Shown: positions 22,090 to 30,254 of the stretch, one piece after another
Position numbering within the stretch: position 1 is the stretch's first letter
Layout: each line of letters starts with the position of its first letter
Assembly (NCBI GenBank): GCA_030824515.1
Contig: JAVBXN010000020.1
Span: 62,001-126,000 of the forward strand
From: Pelobacter sp.
Lineage (GTDB): Bacteria; Desulfobacterota; Desulfuromonadia; Geobacterales; Pseudopelobacteraceae
Direction of reading: 5' to 3'
Length of the DNA: 64,000 bases
The notes under the pieces: model-generated
The model's input: the letters and a program-made list of their open reading frames with translations, nothing else
What the model was told of the DNA's origin: nothing
Databases searched by the model: none
Made by a program: the position numbers and the translations under genes

Positions 22090-22160
22090 GGGAATGTCCC
22101 CACATAAAAAAACCGCACTGAAATAATATCAGGCGGCCGGATCTTTAATATATCCTGTAA

Positions 22161-22275
22161 GCCGCTTTCCTACGCCGGAATTACCCGGTTCAGGTACAAA
22201 GGGTTCCCGCTGCGCGAACATGGCATGTTCACAACAGTCGGATCTCAGTTCCAACGAACTCCCCCAGGGCCTTAT
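22161..22275 (-). promoter_or_regulatory. TPP (THI-box) riboswitch
   Basis: On the minus strand the leader of thiED contains the conserved thi-box elements in order: a GGGGGAG 5' strand, ACTGAGAT, ACCCTTTGTACCTGA and GGTAATTCCGGCGTAGGAA. These are the pyrimidine- and pyrophosphate-sensing helices of the thiamine pyrophosphate aptamer. It should repress thiED-thiC when TPP is abundant; the aptamer ends about 70 nt before the start codon. Family recognition is firm; the exact ends are approximate. Confidence 0.93.
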
Positions 22276-22387: not shown

Positions 22388-23830
22388 TCAGCTGTCGGAC
22401 TCGTTTGCTCCTTTGTTCCTCCTCAAGCGATTGTTGAGCGCCTGACGCGTAATGCCGAGCAATCCGGCGGCGGTGCCCTGGTTGTTTTTTGCAAGTTCGA
22501 GCGCTTTGTCTATCAGTACCGTTTCGGCATACTTGAGCGTCGGAAATGACGGGAAGTAAATGCTGTTGACATCCAATTCCAGCTCTTCGTTCGACATTGT
22601 ATTTGATTCCATGGTCGGTAACTGCTCGCGATTAATGATCTTCTTCAGGAGCGGAGTGGAAAGCCAGGTGGTGCCGGTTCTGCTGACAAAATCAAACACG
22701 ATTGACTGAAGCTCACGCACATTTCCCGGAAAATCGTATGTGACCAGAAAATCGATCAGTTCCTTGCGATAAGACAACCTGCCCTTACCCATCGCTTTTT
22801 CCGCCTCTCTGAGATAATGATCAAAAAGAAGCGGAATATCCCCAGTGCGTTTACGCAGAGGAGGAATGGTTACCTGATGGGTGCAGAGACGATAGTACAG
22901 ATCTTTTCTAAACTTTCCATCATTCATGCATTGCCGCAGGTTCCGGTTGGTGGCCACCACCAGGCGCGCATTGCTGCGCATCGGTGTATCGGAACCAAGC
23001 GGGTAATACTCGTTCTCCTGAAGCAGGCGCAGCAGCTTGATTTGCGACGACATGTTCATATCACCGATTTCGTCCAGAAAGATTGTGCCATTGGCCGCCT
23101 TCATGATCAATCCGTCCCGGTCACCCAGCGCGCCGGTAAATGCGCCGCGCCGGTGGCCGAACAGCGTATCGGAAAACATCTGGTCATCCAGACCGGCAAT
23201 GTTGATACTGATGAAACCGCCCTTTTGCCCGCTCAGCGTATGAACAGCCCTTGCAACCAGCTCCTTGCCGACACCGGTTTCACCGCTGATGAGCACCGGT
23301 TGCCTGGATTTTGCCACCACCTCCACATAGCGCAAGATCGAGATCATCTCCCGGTCCTGTGTTATGAACGACGGAATATTCGGAAGCGGCAGCTGGCTGT
23401 CCGATGCTGCGGTTTTGTCCAATGACATGATATCTTCATTCAGAATCCGCAATTCCAGCGCTCTCTTGACGCTGGCAATAAAACGATTGATCGAGATCGG
23501 TTTCGTAAGATAGTCAACGGCTCCGGTTTTCATGCAATCAATTGCGGTATCAATATGGCACTCGGCCGTCACTACAATTACCGGCACATACGGCTTCAGC
23601 TTTGAAAATTCTTCCAGAAGATCCCGGCCGTGGAGCTTGGGCATCCTCAGGTCGATCACTACCAGGGCAACATCCTCTTTTTTGAAATTTTCCAGCGCCG
23701 CCAGGCTGTCGTCAAACGTGAGGACCTTTTGGAACCCCTCATGATAGAGAAATGACTCCAGCAATGCCAGGGCGTCTGTCTCGTCGTCCACAAGCATTAC
23801 GGGATAGGTACTGAAGTCCTGTCGCTTCAT
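22388..23830 (-). CDS. NtrC-family sigma-54 response regulator
   Basis: A 480-residue activator: receiver domain (1-125; VDDE, phospho-acceptor Asp60 in VVIDLRMP), AAA+ domain (about 155-390) with Walker A GETGVGKE at 183-190, the sigma-54 contact loop GAFTGA at 229-234 and Walker B GTIFLDEIGD, and a Fis-type helix-turn-helix near the C-terminus (AAGLLGITRQALNNRL). Start ATG at 23830 has GGAG 8 nt upstream. It is divergent from the first ferritin-like gene and close to a five-PAS kinase lacking a receiver, its probable partner. Two nearby -24/-12 promoters are its predicted targets. Confidence 0.93.
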   Translation of the reverse strand: MKRQDFSTYPVMLVDDETDALALLESFLYHEGFQKVLTFDDSLAALENFKKEDVALVVIDLRMPKLHGRDLLEEFSKLKPYVPVIVVTAECHIDTAIDCMKTGAVDYLTKPISINRFIASVKRALELRILNEDIMSLDKTAASDSQLPLPNIPSFITQDREMISILRYVEVVAKSRQPVLISGETGVGKELVARAVHTLSGQKGGFISINIAGLDDQMFSDTLFGHRRGAFTGALGDRDGLIMKAANGTIFLDEIGDMNMSSQIKLLRLLQENEYYPLGSDTPMRSNARLVVATNRNLRQCMNDGKFRKDLYYRLCTHQVTIPPLRKRTGDIPLLFDHYLREAEKAMGKGRLSYRKELIDFLVTYDFPGNVRELQSIVFDFVSRTGTTWLSTPLLKKIINREQLPTMESNTMSNEELELDVNSIYFPSFPTLKYAETVLIDKALELAKNNQGTAAGLLGITRQALNNRLRRNKGANESDS

Positions 23831-23956
23831 GTCGGTTGCTCCGTTATTGAATGAATTGATCGGCTGCCACACAGATGTAGAGGCAACATAATTAGTCTAG
23901 TGGATTTTTATCAATAATCAAGCTAGATACAGGTTTCGAATTTAATCTGCAATTTT

Positions 23957-24057
23957 TGTTGCACTATACAATCCGTGTTGCAGTGTGCAATTGTTTTTAA
24001 TTATTAGCCTTCCTTTATCAAGCATCTTTCTTGTTGCAATATTTGTTGCTATTTGCA
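23957..24057. promoter_or_regulatory. Cluster of TGTTGCA motifs, predicted activator-binding sites
   Basis: The 411-nt gap between the NtrC-like gene and the ferritin-like gene is AT-rich and repeats TGTTGCA at 23957, 23976 and 24032, with TGTTGC again at 24044. The second copy is part of the inverted repeat TTGCA-GTG-TGCAA (23978-23990). The sites lie about 70-165 nt upstream of the -24/-12 element at 24122, the usual distance for an enhancer-binding protein. The same motif recurs before the second ferritin-like gene. Binding is inferred. Confidence 0.5.
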
Positions 24058-24121
24058 CGGACGATCGTCTGGTGGTGATTCAACAATGCGCTATATTACT
24101 GCCATATTCCGATCACTAAAA

Positions 24122-24137
24122 TGGCACATAAACTGCT
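24122..24137 (+). promoter_or_regulatory. Sigma-54 type promoter of ferritin-like gene 1
   Basis: TGGCAC, five bases, then CTGCT gives GG-N10-GC with exact spacing; only one base departs from the TGGCAC-N5-TTGC consensus. It lies about 100 nt before the ATG at 24242. Confidence 0.65.
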
Positions 24138-24241
24138 AGAAGTTAACTTTGTATAGCTTCCTGCCCTCGAACCATGATCATTCTGACATGTATGCCACGA
24201 TTGATCTGTGCAGTGACTGTTACCCTACGGAGGAAATTGTG

Positions 24242-24742
24242 ATGGAATTCTTTCAAGAGAAAGCAGTTTTAACGGCAATTGCCATCGAAATCCGTAGTTT
24301 GAGTTTCTATCGCAGCATGTCTTCGAAGGTAAATGACATCCATACAAGGAGTTTCTTTGAACTTCTTGCAGTGGAAGAGGCTCATCATCTTGACCTGTTT
24401 TGCAAGCAGTACTCAGGAACAGATGGCAAACTTGTCGATATCCTGGTCAAGAACAACATGTATTCTTATCCATATTACTGCTCGATGCTCAACTCAGTCG
24501 GATGCCATACTTCCGAGTCGGACGCACTGCAAATTGCGTTTAAGGACGAACAGGCCTGTATCGACTGCTACACCGAATTCATGGAAGAGATACAGGAGCC
24601 AACAATTCGCGATATTTTTGAAAGCATCCTTAAAGAAGCACGTAAACACTGCGAATTGATTTCTGATGAATACCTGCGCCTGATGGGCAGTGTCGAACAG
24701 CTGGACTACGATTTTTCCTGCGTGAACAACCTGAGAACGTGA
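24242..24742 (+). CDS. Ferritin-like (rubrerythrin-type) di-iron protein 1
   Basis: A 166-residue helical protein. The likely di-iron ligands are Glu16, the ExxH pair Glu46/His49 (VEEAHHLDLF), Glu103 (KDEQACIDCY), and a second motif around Glu132/His136 (KEARKHCELI). The last reads ExxxH, with Ala where the first Glu of ExxH is expected, so the metal site may be altered. No C-terminal rubredoxin domain is present. The ATG at 24242 follows GGAGG; the frame extends to 24149 but that part has no ribosome site. Members of this fold handle peroxide, iron or electron transfer; role here unknown. Likely driven by the sigma-54 promoter at 24122. Confidence 0.8.
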   Translation: MEFFQEKAVLTAIAIEIRSLSFYRSMSSKVNDIHTRSFFELLAVEEAHHLDLFCKQYSGTDGKLVDILVKNNMYSYPYYCSMLNSVGCHTSESDALQIAFKDEQACIDCYTEFMEEIQEPTIRDIFESILKEARKHCELISDEYLRLMGSVEQLDYDFSCVNNLRT

Positions 24743-24982
24743 TAGCAAGCGGATTCACGGATAGTCCTGTTACCAATTCAGCAGCACCTTCATGGCTGTT
24801 CCTACAACTTCCTTTAAGTTTTTTTCTAATGTAAATCCGATAGAACTTTACTACAATACTTTACATGGCACTCACCATATCATCGTTTGCAGATACAAAC
24901 AGATGGAAAACCATGCAATCCGTAAAGAGAATCGGAGCAGCTTAAAGCCAGTATTTTTCAGGTTATTGATTGGAGAAAGCAT

Positions 24983-27970
24983 ATGAAGAGCGGAAAAAAC
25001 CGCAAATCCGGTGGCCTGCGCAGTCGCACCGAGCTATGCCCGGAATCTGACGTGGTTGCAATCGACAGCCTTGACGACAAGGATCCTCAGTTTCTTATTC
25101 ATGAATTGCAAGTTCATAAGATCGAGCTGGAGATGCAGAAGGAGGAGCTGCTTCTAGCCAACCGGGAAATTGAAAAGGCGCGCCTGGTCTATCAGGACCT
25201 TTACGACAACGCTCCGGTCGGCTATTTGAGCCTTGATCAAAAAGGATATATCCTGAAACTCAACCTGACCGCTGCATCAATTCTCGGCGGTGAGCGGAAT
25301 TCCCATATCAGGCGACCTCTGGCCAGTTATTTTTCTTCGGAATCCTGCCATGCTTTCGAACTCTTCCGGCAACGGATGATTAACGGCAAGGACCTTGAGA
25401 ATTGTGAAGTAATGCTTGAAAACACCCCGACCGGTCGACTCTGGCTGCTTGTCGAAGGGCAGTCATACACTGGTACGGAAGGGTGTTTCAGTGAGTACCG
25501 CATGGTACTGGTTGACATCACCGAACGCAAACTGATCGAAGAAAGTTTGCGTAACAGCGAAAAACTATACCGCGCAATAGGTGAATCCATTGACTATGGA
25601 GTTTGGGTATGCACACCGGATGGCCGAAACATCTATGCCAGTGATTCATTTCTTGAGCTTGTGGGTATATCCCAGGAACAGTGCTCTGACTTCGGTTGGG
25701 GCGACACGTTGCATCCGGACGATGCCGAGCGGACTATTTTGGCATGGAAGGAATGCATATGCAGCGAAGGATTATGGGATATCGAACACCGTTTTCGCGG
25801 ATTGGACGGACAATGGCACCCCATACTTGCACGTGGAGTCCCGGTGAGAAATGACAATGGCGATGTGACCTGCTGGGCCGGTATCAATCTGGATATGAGC
25901 CGCATAAAAAAGGTTGAGGAGGAGCTACGCCAGCGGAGTTGCGAACTGGAGGCAGCCCGGGCGAAATCGGAAAACGACCGGCTACTGCTCCTGGCAGTCA
26001 TGGAGGCGCTCCCGGTAGGAGTTGCCATTACCGACGCCAATGGCGGGAATATTCTTTCCAACAACGCATATGATCTGATATGGGCTGGACCGAGGCCGTT
26101 ACCCCGCTCCATCGATGAATACAGCGCCTACAAGGCATGGTGGCCGGACAGCGGCGCCTCCGTAGCTCCCGAAGAATGGGCCTCGGCAATAGCGGTACGT
26201 AAGGGGGAAACCACGGTTGGACAGCTGATGCGGATTCAGCGTTTCGACGGTTCCGAAGCGTTTGTCATCAACAGCGCTTCACCGGTTCGCGATGTCGATG
26301 GAAACATCATCGGATGCGCGGTTGCCATTCAGGACATAACCGATCTAAAGATGGCTGAGGAAGCACTGCGCGAGAACGAATTGAAAGCCAGCGCACTCAT
26401 CAACGCGGCCGGCGAGTCTGTCTGGATGTTTTGCCACGACGGCAAGATCCTGGCCGCCAACGTAACCGCTGCCAGGAGGATCGGCAGTGTTCCGGAGGAG
26501 ATCATCGGCAGGTACTGGAAGGACCTGATCCCGGCAGAACTTGTTGCTTCACGAGAAAAAATGATAAATGAAGTCTTTCAAACTGGCCTGCCGGTTCACT
26601 TCGAGGATACGCGTGCCGGAATGTGCTTTGATCACAGTATCTATCCGGTACGTGACCGGTCAGGCAATATTACGTCGGTGGCACTGTTTAGCAGCGATGT
26701 GACCACACAAAAAAATGCGGAGGAAGCGCTCAGGGTGAGTCGCGAGGATCTGAACCGCGCACAGGAGGTAGGTAAGATCGGCAGTTGGCGTCTCGATGTT
26801 CGAGGAAACGTCCTGACCTGGTCCGATGAAAACCATCGCATCTTCGGTACACCTAAAGGAACCCCGCTGACCTACGAGAACTTTCTTGACTGTGTACACC
26901 CGGATGACCGGACTTACGTCGATACCAACTGGAAGGCGGCATTATTAAGCGGTGTGCCCTACGACATCGAACATCGGCTGATGGTTGACGGCCGCTGCAA
27001 ATGGGTGCTGGAAAAAGCGTATCTGGAATTTGAAGAAGACGGCACATTGATCGGCGGATTCGGTATCACTCAGGACATCAGCAAGCGCAAGGAGGTTGAG
27101 GAGGAATTGCAGAAGGCCCATAACGAGCTTGAAGTCCGTGTCAGGCAGAGAACGGATGAACTGGCCACAACCGTGGAAGCGCTGCTGGGTGAAATGGCCA
27201 ACCGGGAAAGGGCTGAAAAAGTCCTGATTGAGGAGACACTGGAGCGGGTACGGGCAGAGGAAGTGCTGCGCGAAAAGGAACAGATGCTGTTACTTCAGAA
27301 CCGGCATGCGGCCATGGGCGAGATGATTGGAAATATCGCCCATCAATGGCGTCAGCCATTGAACACGCTGGGGTTGATTACCCAGAGACTGGGCGTTTTC
27401 TATGGTTCCCCCAGCTTCAACAAGGAACTGCTGGACACATCCGTGAGCAAATCGATGGAGATCATTAACCATATGTCCCGAACTATCGATGATTTCAGGA
27501 ATTTTTTCTCCACTGAACGGGAAAAATCCGAATTCAGGGTAAATGATGCACTAATAAAAGCTCTATCGCTCGTTGAAGCCAATTTCAAGGATAGCGGAAT
27601 CAAGATCATACATAACGAAATAGATGAAATATCAATTTACGGGTTCCCAAATGAATATGCCCAGGTTCTGCTCAACATATTCATTAACGCAAAAGATGCA
27701 ATTAACGAACGTAAGATCGAGTCTCCATGCCTGACCGTCTCGATCTGCAATGAAAATTGCAGATCGGTGGTAACCATCGCAGACAATGCCGGCGGCATAC
27801 CGGAAGATATCATAGAAAAAGTTTTCGATCCTTATTTCACCACCAAGGGACCGCAACAGGGTACGGGCGTAGGCCTGTTCATGTCAAAGACCATCATTGA
27901 AAAAAACATGGGTGGCAGGCTCTCGGCAAGGAACACCGCTACTGGTGCAGAGTTCCGGATCGAAGTTTAA
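24983..27970 (+). CDS. Five-PAS sensor histidine kinase
   Basis: A 995-residue cytoplasmic kinase. After a short coil (KIELEMQKEELLLANREI) come five PAS domains at about 70-190, 195-310, 335-455, 462-580 and 590-705, then a long coiled coil, the phospho-acceptor His787 (NIAHQWRQPLNTLGL) and an HATPase domain ending near 995 (NIFINAKDAI, DNAGGIP, GTGVGLFMSK). No receiver domain, so it needs an external regulator, most likely the NtrC-like protein at 22388. GGAG lies 8 nt before the ATG. The second PAS is very similar to one in the sigma-54 activator at 33611. It sits between two ferritin-like genes. Confidence 0.92.
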   Translation: MKSGKNRKSGGLRSRTELCPESDVVAIDSLDDKDPQFLIHELQVHKIELEMQKEELLLANREIEKARLVYQDLYDNAPVGYLSLDQKGYILKLNLTAASILGGERNSHIRRPLASYFSSESCHAFELFRQRMINGKDLENCEVMLENTPTGRLWLLVEGQSYTGTEGCFSEYRMVLVDITERKLIEESLRNSEKLYRAIGESIDYGVWVCTPDGRNIYASDSFLELVGISQEQCSDFGWGDTLHPDDAERTILAWKECICSEGLWDIEHRFRGLDGQWHPILARGVPVRNDNGDVTCWAGINLDMSRIKKVEEELRQRSCELEAARAKSENDRLLLLAVMEALPVGVAITDANGGNILSNNAYDLIWAGPRPLPRSIDEYSAYKAWWPDSGASVAPEEWASAIAVRKGETTVGQLMRIQRFDGSEAFVINSASPVRDVDGNIIGCAVAIQDITDLKMAEEALRENELKASALINAAGESVWMFCHDGKILAANVTAARRIGSVPEEIIGRYWKDLIPAELVASREKMINEVFQTGLPVHFEDTRAGMCFDHSIYPVRDRSGNITSVALFSSDVTTQKNAEEALRVSREDLNRAQEVGKIGSWRLDVRGNVLTWSDENHRIFGTPKGTPLTYENFLDCVHPDDRTYVDTNWKAALLSGVPYDIEHRLMVDGRCKWVLEKAYLEFEEDGTLIGGFGITQDISKRKEVEEELQKAHNELEVRVRQRTDELATTVEALLGEMANRERAEKVLIEETLERVRAEEVLREKEQMLLLQNRHAAMGEMIGNIAHQWRQPLNTLGLITQRLGVFYGSPSFNKELLDTSVSKSMEIINHMSRTIDDFRNFFSTEREKSEFRVNDALIKALSLVEANFKDSGIKIIHNEIDEISIYGFPNEYAQVLLNIFINAKDAINERKIESPCLTVSICNENCRSVVTIADNAGGIPEDIIEKVFDPYFTTKGPQQGTGVGLFMSKTIIEKNMGGRLSARNTATGAEFRIEV

Positions 27971-28010
27971 CTAATCCTGCAATGTCCATTACTTCCGGCT
28001 GAAACAAGCC

Positions 28011-28112
28011 TGCAACAAATGTGTCACCGCGCAACAAACCTTACCCGGTTAATCATCAGACAATTTCATCGCTTCATCCGGATTTGACTCAATTCACGCA
28101 ACATTTGTTGCA
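28011..28112. promoter_or_regulatory. TGCAACA motifs and GCAACA-TT-TGTTGC palindrome
   Basis: The intergenic stretch after the kinase carries TGCAACA at 28011, GCAACA at 28031 and the perfect inverted repeat GCAACATTTGTTGC at 28098-28111. These are the reverse complement of the TGTTGCA sites seen at 23957-24049. The palindrome is about 75 nt upstream of a -24/-12 element, consistent with an activator site for the same NtrC-like protein. Confidence 0.5.
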
Positions 28113-28186
28113 TTCAGGCGTGGTCCGGTTTTGTCTCATATGTGTTCAATGCTTTGATATTATTGAATAATCAATATATTGGGGAT

Positions 28187-28202
28187 TGGCTCGATTTCTG
28201 CC
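28187..28202 (+). promoter_or_regulatory. Sigma-54 type promoter of ferritin-like gene 2
   Basis: TTGGCTC, four bases, then TTCTGCC places GG (28188-28189) and GC (28200-28201) ten bases apart, the invariant sigma-54 spacing. It is 46 nt from the ATG at 28248. Confidence 0.55.
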
Positions 28203-28247
28203 TGATATCGAATCAGTTTTTAATCCATCGCGGGCAAAGGTGCCGAT

Positions 28248-28754
28248 ATGAGCGAGATGATCAACTTGATGACCAGCAAGATTTTCCTGCAAACATGCAT
28301 CTCCATAGAAGAACTCTGCGCAGAACTGTACCATTACTACAGCAGGGCATACGAGGATATTCCGGAAGCATCCCGTCTTTGGAAGAAAACCGCACTCGAA
28401 GAGGAAGACCACCGCCAGCATTTCATGCTGGCGGTGCGTTTAATGAACGAGACCGAATTCAAGGTGTCGGGGAATCATCTTATAAAAGCCTATTCCATAC
28501 AGAACAAGCTCCGCTATCTGCTTAATCAGGTCAGCCACAGCACTCCGGAACTATTGACGGCCGTCACAAAGGCGATTGAGATGGAAGATGTGCTCGCCGA
28601 CCTGCACGCCCATATTTCACTGAATTTCAATGACAGTAACATGCAGAACCTGTTCCGGGCGTTGAGCGAAGCCGACCGTGACCACATCAGTGCCTTGAAA
28701 CAGTACCGGACTATCCTGTATCTGCCGCAAAGCGATATGAGCGAAAATCAATAG
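28248..28754 (+). CDS. Ferritin-like di-iron protein 2
   Basis: A 168-residue four-helix protein related in plan, not closely in sequence, to the one at 24242. Candidate ligands are Glu22 or Glu26 (EELCAELYHYY), Glu52/His55 (EEEDHRQHF), Glu113 (EMEDVLADLH) and Asp143/His146 (ADRDHISAL), with Asp replacing Glu in the second ExxH. AAAGG lies 7 nt before the ATG. It has its own -24/-12 promoter and the shared TGTTGCA palindrome, so it is probably co-regulated with gene 1. Substrate or partner unknown. Confidence 0.78.
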   Translation: MSEMINLMTSKIFLQTCISIEELCAELYHYYSRAYEDIPEASRLWKKTALEEEDHRQHFMLAVRLMNETEFKVSGNHLIKAYSIQNKLRYLLNQVSHSTPELLTAVTKAIEMEDVLADLHAHISLNFNDSNMQNLFRALSEADRDHISALKQYRTILYLPQSDMSENQ

Positions 28755-28916: not shown

Positions 28917-30254
28917 TCATCTCTCATAATCCTGTCCCGCAAGAAGGTCTGAATCAAGGCACAATTTTACAACGTGCGGATCAAAGTGTGTTCCGGCCAG
29001 TGAACGGATATGTTCACGCACCTTTTCAACAGGCCACGAGGAGCGATAGAGGCGGTCGGACCTCAGTGCATCCCAAACATCAACAACCGCAAAAATGCGC
29101 GCCACAAGAGGGATCTGCTCGCCTTTCAGGCCGAACGGGTAGCCGGTGCCGTCCCACTTCTCATGATGGGCACAGGGAATGTCCAATGCTGCGCGCAGGT
29201 AACGGATCGGAGAGAGCATTTCGTAGGCAAATACGGTGTGTTTTTTCATAACAACCCATTCAGCCTCGGTCAGAGCTTCGTGTTTGAACAGAATCTCGTC
29301 CGGAACCCCCATCTTGCCGATGTCGTGCAGCAGCGCACCCCAGCGGACCTGCACCAGCTCCGCGTCACTCAACCCGAACAATCTTGCCAGTTTGACGGTC
29401 AGATACGCCACGCGCTGCGTGTGCCCTTCGGTCTCGTTGTCGCGTAGTTCCAGTGCCCGTGACCAGCCTTCGATGGTGGCATCGTATGCCTCCGCAAGCT
29501 CCCGGTTGGAACGCTGCAAATCATCAAACAGGGTGACATTGTCGATGGCGATAGCAGCCTGGGCGGCAAGGGCCTTCAGGAAGTCCATCCATTCTTCATT
29601 ACGCACAATCTGTGTACGATGAAAAACTTCAAGCACACCCACCACCTGTCCTTTCGCAATCAACGGTACTCCATGGTAGCTGACGAAGTTTTCGCCCTTT
29701 TGAAATTTTCCATCCAGTAGAAGGTTATGCTCTTTTTCCAGATCAGGTATATGAATGACACTGCATTTCAGTGCGACTCGTCCGGCATAACCTTCTCCAA
29801 GATACTGGATTTTGTGTTCCGTCAAATTGTTGTGAAAGCCGCGCCCGGCCACATATTTGAGCGTTTGGGATGTCGGGTCCAACAACAGCACGTCGGCGGC
29901 GTCAACGTTCAATTGAACGATTACATGGGTGAGCAGCGTTGTCATACTCAACTCCAGGTCGAAGCTGAAGTTGATAGCGCGGTCAACGTCAACCAGTGCG
30001 GTCAAATGTTCAAGGTGTCTGCGAATCTGTTCATCCGCGCACCTGATGTCGCTGACGTCGGTTAACATCACCACAACCCGCCGCAACCGGTTGCCGCCAT
30101 CAAACTCGGGGTAGGCATTCACCAGCACCCACTTTATTTCCGCCCCGTGACCCGGATCAATACCCATGATGAAAATTTTCAATACGTTGCCGGTAGCGCT
30201 CACCCTGTAATAGGGATATTCGTCTACGGGCATCCTGGAGCCGTTCTCGCGGAT
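28917..30254 (-). pseudogene. C-terminal part of an IS-split PAS-PAS-GAF-HD-GYP gene
   Basis: This piece holds the end of a PAS domain, a GAF domain (about 90-235 counting from the Met at 30233) and a complete HD-GYP domain (HDIGKMGV, HHEKWDGTGYP). The coding frame continues upstream of the first Met at 30233 (FIRENGSR precedes it, typical PAS sequence) to the edge of the insertion sequence. Joined to 32086-32709 it encodes 653 residues without any frameshift. The isolated fragment could still be translated from 30233 if an IS promoter reads out, but as a sensor it has lost its first PAS domain and most of its second. The domain would hydrolyse cyclic-di-GMP. Confidence 0.88.

Follow-up and report, generated by a model that had tools for sequence, protein, structure and literature searches.

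In a 64,000-nucleotide stretch of a Pelobacter sp. genome (contig JAVBXN010000020.1, positions 62,001 to 126,000; hereafter the window), an NtrC-family response regulator, a histidine kinase and two genes for ferritin-like proteins, which we refer to as Fer1 and Fer2, lie together between positions 22388 and 28754. Sequence comparison makes it probable that these genes form an NtrC-type two-component sigma-54 switch, which drives a small iron/redox regulon via an unusually regular double enhancer. Both ferritin-like genes are preceded by the same register: a distal palindrome, 86–87 bp to a proximal palindrome and 87–90 bp on to a sigma-54-type promoter, the steps being counted between the starts of the two GCAA motifs and from the second of these to the GG of the promoter. 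Before Fer1 (87 + 87 bp), these are the distal palindrome UAS2, TGCAATTTTTGTTGCA (23948–23963, GCAA starting at 23949), the proximal palindrome UAS1, GCAATATTTGTTGC (24036–24049, 87 bp after UAS2), and the plus-strand promoter TGGCACATAAACTGCT (24122–24137), with its GG 87 bp past the beginning of UAS1; a further inverted repeat, TTGCA-GTG-TGCAA (23978–23990), stands between the two palindromes, and its GTTGCA half recurs near the same place in several relatives. Before Fer2 (86 + 90 bp), UAS2 is an imperfect palindrome, GCAACAAATGTGTC (28012–28025), followed by a further GCAACA half-site (28031–28044), by the perfect palindrome UAS1, GCAACATTTGTTGC (28098–28111, 86 bp after UAS2), and by the plus-strand promoter TGGCTCGATTTCTGCC (28187–28202), its GG 90 bp past the beginning of UAS1. 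The UAS2 sequences of both genes are identical in the genomes G021 and G024, the two closest relatives. Both promoters match GG-N10-GC with a TGGCA-type −24 and a TGC −12 element, and both are present where a preliminary description of the window had placed them (24122 and 28187); the −24 element before Fer2 reads TGGCTC, and this promoter is therefore less near the consensus.

That description had also pointed to the motif TGTTGCA, often as inverted repeats, in both upstream regions. The repeats are indeed present before both genes, but TGTTGCA by itself is not enriched in the window (13 copies vs. 10.1 expected) and was rejected as a stand-alone motif; the site is instead the palindrome GCAA-N6-TTGC, two per promoter and in near-fixed register. 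This palindrome has eight exact copies in the whole window, including those at 23949, 24036 and 28098, whilst a copy inside the kinase gene (27746) was rejected because it is broken in G021 and G024. Across the source genome, which is 4.65 Mb in size, Geobacter-related and carries an rpoN gene, a strict pattern (palindrome, 64–84 bp, TGGC-N8-TGC) finds four matches and its reversed control none; two of the four are the sites of Fer1 and Fer2, and the other two carry a different core, GCAACC-NN-GGTTGC. With a looser promoter (GG-N9-TGC at 62–84 bp) there are nine matches, vs. two for the reversed control. One further exact palindrome pair, on contig 16 with a spacing of 93 bp, looks like chance. 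The second core lies 93 bp before TGGCAC-type promoters at two loci of the source genome, L273 (contig C53, near 881) and L274 (contig C59, near 3490, where the 553 aa gene product has no Pfam match), with similar matches in G021, G024, G042 and G019; it was treated as a different system.

Exact palindrome pairs also accompany the regulator from genome to genome. Regulator orthologues were drawn from a 293-genome search by a gap in identity (≥58% in, ≤52% out), scoring up to five candidates per genome (E ≤ 1e-100) among the matches listed, a procedure that a shortened orthologue could escape. In a tree of 35 rows, 21 regulator sequences from 20 genomes, several of them partial at contig ends, form one group with 100/100 support. 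The exact pair occurs in 25 of 147 genomes searched: 16 of the 20 with the regulator clade vs. 9 of the 127 without (Fisher p about 8e-12, ignoring shared ancestry) and, within the family, 15 of 17 with the regulator vs. 4 of 59 without; the reversed control of the pair pattern matches 2 of the 147. Spacing is uneven too, with 36 pairs at 79–99 bp in the 20 regulator-bearing genomes vs. a single pair at 104–124 bp, and 34 of the 36 at 86–91 bp. Among the 76 family genomes, a palindrome plus promoter is matched 52 times in the 17 that carry the regulator and 32 times in the other 59, while the reversed control yields 24 matches over the full set; single palindrome-promoter matches in genomes lacking the regulator are therefore mostly background. 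Four regulator-bearing genomes lack an exact pair (G034, G066, G081 and G136). Two of these come close to one. In G034 the proximal site, GTAATATTTATTAC, is a symmetric variant that lies 89 bp beyond the distal site, with a promoter 88 bp further on; such a compensated palindrome is the pattern expected of a palindrome under selection. In G066 the layout is near-complete, one of the palindromes having a single mismatch and the promoter, at 92 bp, being weaker. The genome G014 holds nine exact pairs (L234–L240, L078 and L123), far more of the same layout than the source genome.

We compiled a site table by scanning fetched loci, a biased sample in which many loci were chosen for holding the pattern, counting identical rows from close genomes once and accepting promoters with at least 4 of 7 consensus positions. 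Four of its 43 rows were dropped (window 18866, L125 position 26, L273 and L274), leaving 39: 26 with two exact palindromes, seven with a distal palindrome at 1–2 mismatches and six without a distal palindrome in register. The 33 rows with a distal palindrome show 86–90 bp between palindromes and 87–95 bp on to the promoter. The consensus from 39 rows (33 for the distal site) reads TGCAAT.tTTGTTGCA for the distal palindrome, ctGCAAtaTtTGTTGCt for the proximal palindrome and TGGCAcG.a..cTGCt for the promoter. One row, L122, is doubtful, its 'promoter' overlapping a degenerate palindrome with no promoter at the expected place. A looser promoter test yields 47 rows, four of them new (L241, L258, L262 and L269), two of which have both palindromes exact; it likewise gives no palindrome-promoter pair at the loci described below as having none. 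Degenerate sites escape exact patterns, so the regulon sizes given are lower bounds. GG-N10-GC is weak as a pattern and, as noted, TGTTGCA is not enriched, which could suggest that the motif and promoter matches are functionless, arising by chance or inherited as similarity among near-identical genomes. The spacing and co-occurrence controls, and footprints that retain the sites while some of the flanking sequence differs, make this highly improbable.

Such footprints are seen in G021 and G024, whose proteins share 89–92% (regulator), 88–89% (Fer1), 86% (kinase, residues 302–995) and 89–90% (Fer2) identity with those of the window. Both genomes keep both promoters and the palindromes whilst the stretches between diverge (209 of 281 columns identical upstream of Fer2). 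In eight genomes (G000, the source genome, with G021, G024, G061, G044, G014, G006 and G031) a palindrome pair lies within the regulator's own divergent intergenic region. The divergent target differs between the distant relatives, being Fer1 in G061 and G044, an ADP-ribosylglycohydrolase in G006 and G031 and, in G014, a protein of exported type; in all five, regulator and target are separated by the same pair of palindromes with its promoter. The Fer1 layout of palindromes and promoter is found in six genomes (G000, G021, G024, G061, G044 and G014), including G014, where Fer1 lies on another contig behind a different upstream neighbour, yet with the pair and promoter. The Fer2 sites were found only in the source genome and in G021 and G024 (two of two close orthologues). 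By these comparisons control of Fer1 is the apparently older part of the system, whose old core comprises the regulator, the kinase and a divergent target operon. A Fer2 paralogue with 44% identity on the same contig (L087, G000:C33:16025-16492) is without control sites.

Pfam and NCBIfam domains confirmed the gene identities given in the preliminary description, an NtrC-like regulator, a five-PAS kinase without receiver and two ferritin-like genes; the regulator is on the minus strand, whilst Fer1, the kinase and Fer2 follow on the plus strand. The regulator (22388–23830), the proposed activator, belongs to the NtrC family by its domains, a receiver, a sigma-54 activator AAA+ domain with GAFTGA and a Fis-type helix-turn-helix (HTH), with matches above cut-offs to PF00072, PF00158, PF25601 and PF02954; GAFTGA and GETGVGKE are visible in its translation, and its longest open reading frame (ORF) begins further out, at 23872. 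Among the best 25 of 108 NCBIfam families it does not exceed the curated equivalog cut-off for NtrC, AtoC, ZraR or another named orthologue, its top model being TIGR01818 (325 bits vs. a cut-off of 558.6). Its best named-record matches are metagenome-assembled genomes, e.g. Geobacteraceae bacterium GWC2_55_20 (94%), and also a deltaproteobacterium, isolate E10 (91%). The kinase (24983–27970), the regulator's proposed partner, has five PAS (sensory_box) stretches, HisKA and HATPase, and profile searches against Pfam and NCBIfam gave no receiver match in it.

Fer1 (24242–24742, 166 aa) carries the rubrerythrin domain PF02915 (E 7.9e-11); its ORF is listed from 24149, the likelier start being the ATG at 24242, which GGAGG precedes. 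Fer2 (28248–28754, 168 aa) matches PF02915 at 25.3 bits vs. a cut-off of 22.8. An AlphaFold2 model of Fer1, with a predicted local distance difference test score (pLDDT) of 84, is a predicted ferritin-like helical bundle, and its Foldseek list is headed by ferritin-superfamily chains, with a best E of 4.8e-3, none ≤0.001, and template-modelling (TM) scores up to 0.63 by query; the model of Fer2 (pLDDT 51) is too poor for use, and sequence searches of the PDB gave nothing firm. Residues E16, E46, E103, E132 and H136 of Fer1 are kept in five of five aligned sequences; together with H49 these are its predicted iron ligands. Fer1 and Fer2 resemble the rubrerythrin/ferritin-like superfamily in PF02915 and, for Fer1, in predicted fold, but differ in that no C-terminal rubredoxin domain was detected by Pfam in either and in that a His predicted to be a ligand in Fer1 varies between relatives.

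Two neighbouring features were also recorded. A thiamine pyrophosphate (TPP) riboswitch (22150–22275, minus strand; Rfam RF00059, 57.9 bits) lies upstream of thiamine-type genes adjoining the module and was the sole match near it in the Rfam scan. On the other side, a GAF-HD-GYP gene (28917–30233, minus strand) adjoins Fer2, and in G061 a Fer2 homologue lies within a few kilobases of an HD-GYP gene 75% identical to it.

Putative targets in relatives, taken as genes behind the sites or in the same run, include ADP-ribosylglycohydrolase (L125, L126), PNPOx-family proteins (L252, L076 and, by the strict palindrome-promoter pattern, L255), an OmpA-type porin (L244), redoxin with MlaC (L242), a multiheme cytochrome with a ferritin gene after it (L238), a bacterioferritin-type gene (L076), a cytochrome c7-type protein (L259), cytochrome P460 (L263), a multicopper oxidase (L237), an alpha-amylase domain protein (L240), a PEP-CTERM protein behind a single palindrome (L271) and products that match no Pfam family (L235, L236, L256 and one gene of the two at L257). 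Pairs at L253 and L254 adjoin biotin-synthase-like radical SAM genes and have no recognised promoter. In G061, Fer1 is followed by a run encoding ADP-ribosylglycohydrolase, a kinase, PNPOx, ferredoxin, a bacterioferritin-type ferritin and OmpA, with a second palindrome-promoter set before PNPOx, whilst in G029 PNPOx-like and desulfoferrodoxin genes follow an aconitase gene adjoining the regulator, with an unconvincing promoter. Ferritin-superfamily and redox genes recur in a mixed list, and a target set that is partly iron/redox fits the earlier guess of redox, iron or peroxide sensing. The HisKA/HATPase part is 57–60% identical in kinases that adjoin the regulator or lie in the Fer1 run (G061, G014, G044, G006 and G031), whilst the input domains vary by lineage (L076, L078, L080, L125 and L126), with five PAS here and DUF4118, PAS and GAF in G061; the cue may therefore differ by lineage.

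This variation, and the OmpA-type porin, redoxin-MlaC, cytochrome P460, multicopper oxidase, ADP-ribosylglycohydrolase and exported-type proteins among the targets, would also suit a regulator that acts at these promoters for a purpose other than iron or peroxide (e.g. envelope, nitrosative or general starvation stress), the ferritin-like proteins being incidental. We regard this as possible, if somewhat doubtful, as ferritin-superfamily genes recur (Fer1, the bacterioferritin-type gene of L076 and the ferritin gene of L238) in the company of ferredoxin, PNPOx-family and redoxin genes.

Several observations weigh against an iron/redox regulon under the control of this regulator. Some putative targets are not iron/redox genes (the alpha-amylase domain and PEP-CTERM proteins and those without a Pfam match), and His49 of Fer1 is Gln in two of the five aligned sequences (G021 and G024), which leaves the iron chemistry of Fer1 unsure. 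Nine genomes without the regulator have the pair, two of these being tandem-repeat matches (G082 and G119). Conversely, G081 has the regulator and no exact pair, only single palindromes with promoters elsewhere, and in G136 the contig ends at the regulator, so the adjoining region falls outside the comparison. No palindrome-promoter pair precedes the Fer1 homologues of G064 (41% identity), G035 (39%) and G016 (43%) or a 57% paralogue in G021, and none of 11 further Fer2 homologues examined, among them those of G061, G035, G014 and G037 (50–58% identity), has a site within 420 bp. Control of Fer2 has therefore either arisen recently here or disappeared elsewhere. Co-occurrence of the inverted repeat with GG-N10-GC before homologous genes, which the preliminary description had looked to, thus extends, among the homologues examined, to five other genomes for Fer1 and to the two close orthologues for Fer2. 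Its proposal that the regulator switches on both ferritin-like genes together is supported in that the layout stands before both and the pairs track the regulator clade; the proposed joint control, on the other hand, is lineage-specific.

Regulators of the 60–62% group (G055, G043, G050 and the second copy of G064) likewise have no such layout adjoining them, their own upstream region included, while pairs occur elsewhere in those genomes. With many similar regulators in the source genome (175 first-look candidates, five of them scored), the protein that binds the palindromes might be another NtrC-family regulator, encoded elsewhere, with which the adjoining one is only correlated. This we consider unlikely, given that presence of the pair follows this regulator clade and that the pair occupies its divergent intergenic region in eight genomes.

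The proposed two-component switch resembles NtrC-family sigma-54 activators of the NtrBC, ZraSR and AtoSC type in its receiver-AAA+-Fis HTH regulator, PAS kinase partner, palindromic upstream sites and −24/−12 promoters. It differs from them in its ferritin-like and redox targets, in a regulator below the curated cut-offs (best 25 of 108 NCBIfam models) and in its register of 86–90 bp between palindromes and 87–95 bp to the promoter (33 site rows). Genome-wide sigma-54 regulons are available for two related bacteria, Desulfovibrio vulgaris (PMC4641369) and Geobacter sulfurreducens (PMC2725144), and the words ferritin and rubrerythrin are absent from the main text of both papers. In the literature searched, with few subscription papers within reach, we recognised no description of a sigma-54 two-component system for ferritin-like genes or of this enhancer layout. 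As far as that literature shows, the mechanism is classical in type, and what is new is the regulon and the unusually strict double-enhancer register.

NtrC-type regulators, once phosphorylated, bind to enhancers and, by way of looping, remodel sigma-54 polymerase. Here, the PAS kinase would sense a redox- or iron-related cue and phosphorylate the regulator, which, judging from the conservation, location and co-occurrence of the sites, would bind both GCAA-N6-TTGC palindromes before each ferritin-like gene. Its AAA+ ring would then, by DNA looping as established for the class, open sigma-54 polymerase at TGGCA-N7-TGC. Expression of Fer1 would rise, probably along with that of the downstream kinase gene in a positive loop, and Fer2 would be raised too; Fer1 and perhaps the kinase gene may share one transcript, as no terminator-like site is listed between them. 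From their family and the content of the regulon, the Fer1 and Fer2 products most likely handle iron or peroxide.

Tentatively, the system may be one instance of a family-wide sigma-54 regulon in the Desulfuromonadia, defined by a rigid enhancer module of two palindromes and a promoter in near-equal steps of ~88 bp. The fixed register would reflect a need for an ordered nucleoprotein structure, possibly two activator dimers and a bending protein, and the module would be gained and lost before genes for iron, redox and envelope functions, with Fer2 recruited recently. If true, such a rigid module would contrast with the usual teaching that enhancer looping is position-tolerant, and its unusually strict spacing offers a test case for how rigid bacterial enhancers must be. 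For relatives of metal-reducing bacteria, the outcome is a concrete sigma-54 regulon, defined by sequence, whose regulator, sites and targets are predicted and which ties ferritin-like proteins to a two-component system; the analysis also suggests that Fer2 is a regulon member gained within a small clade.

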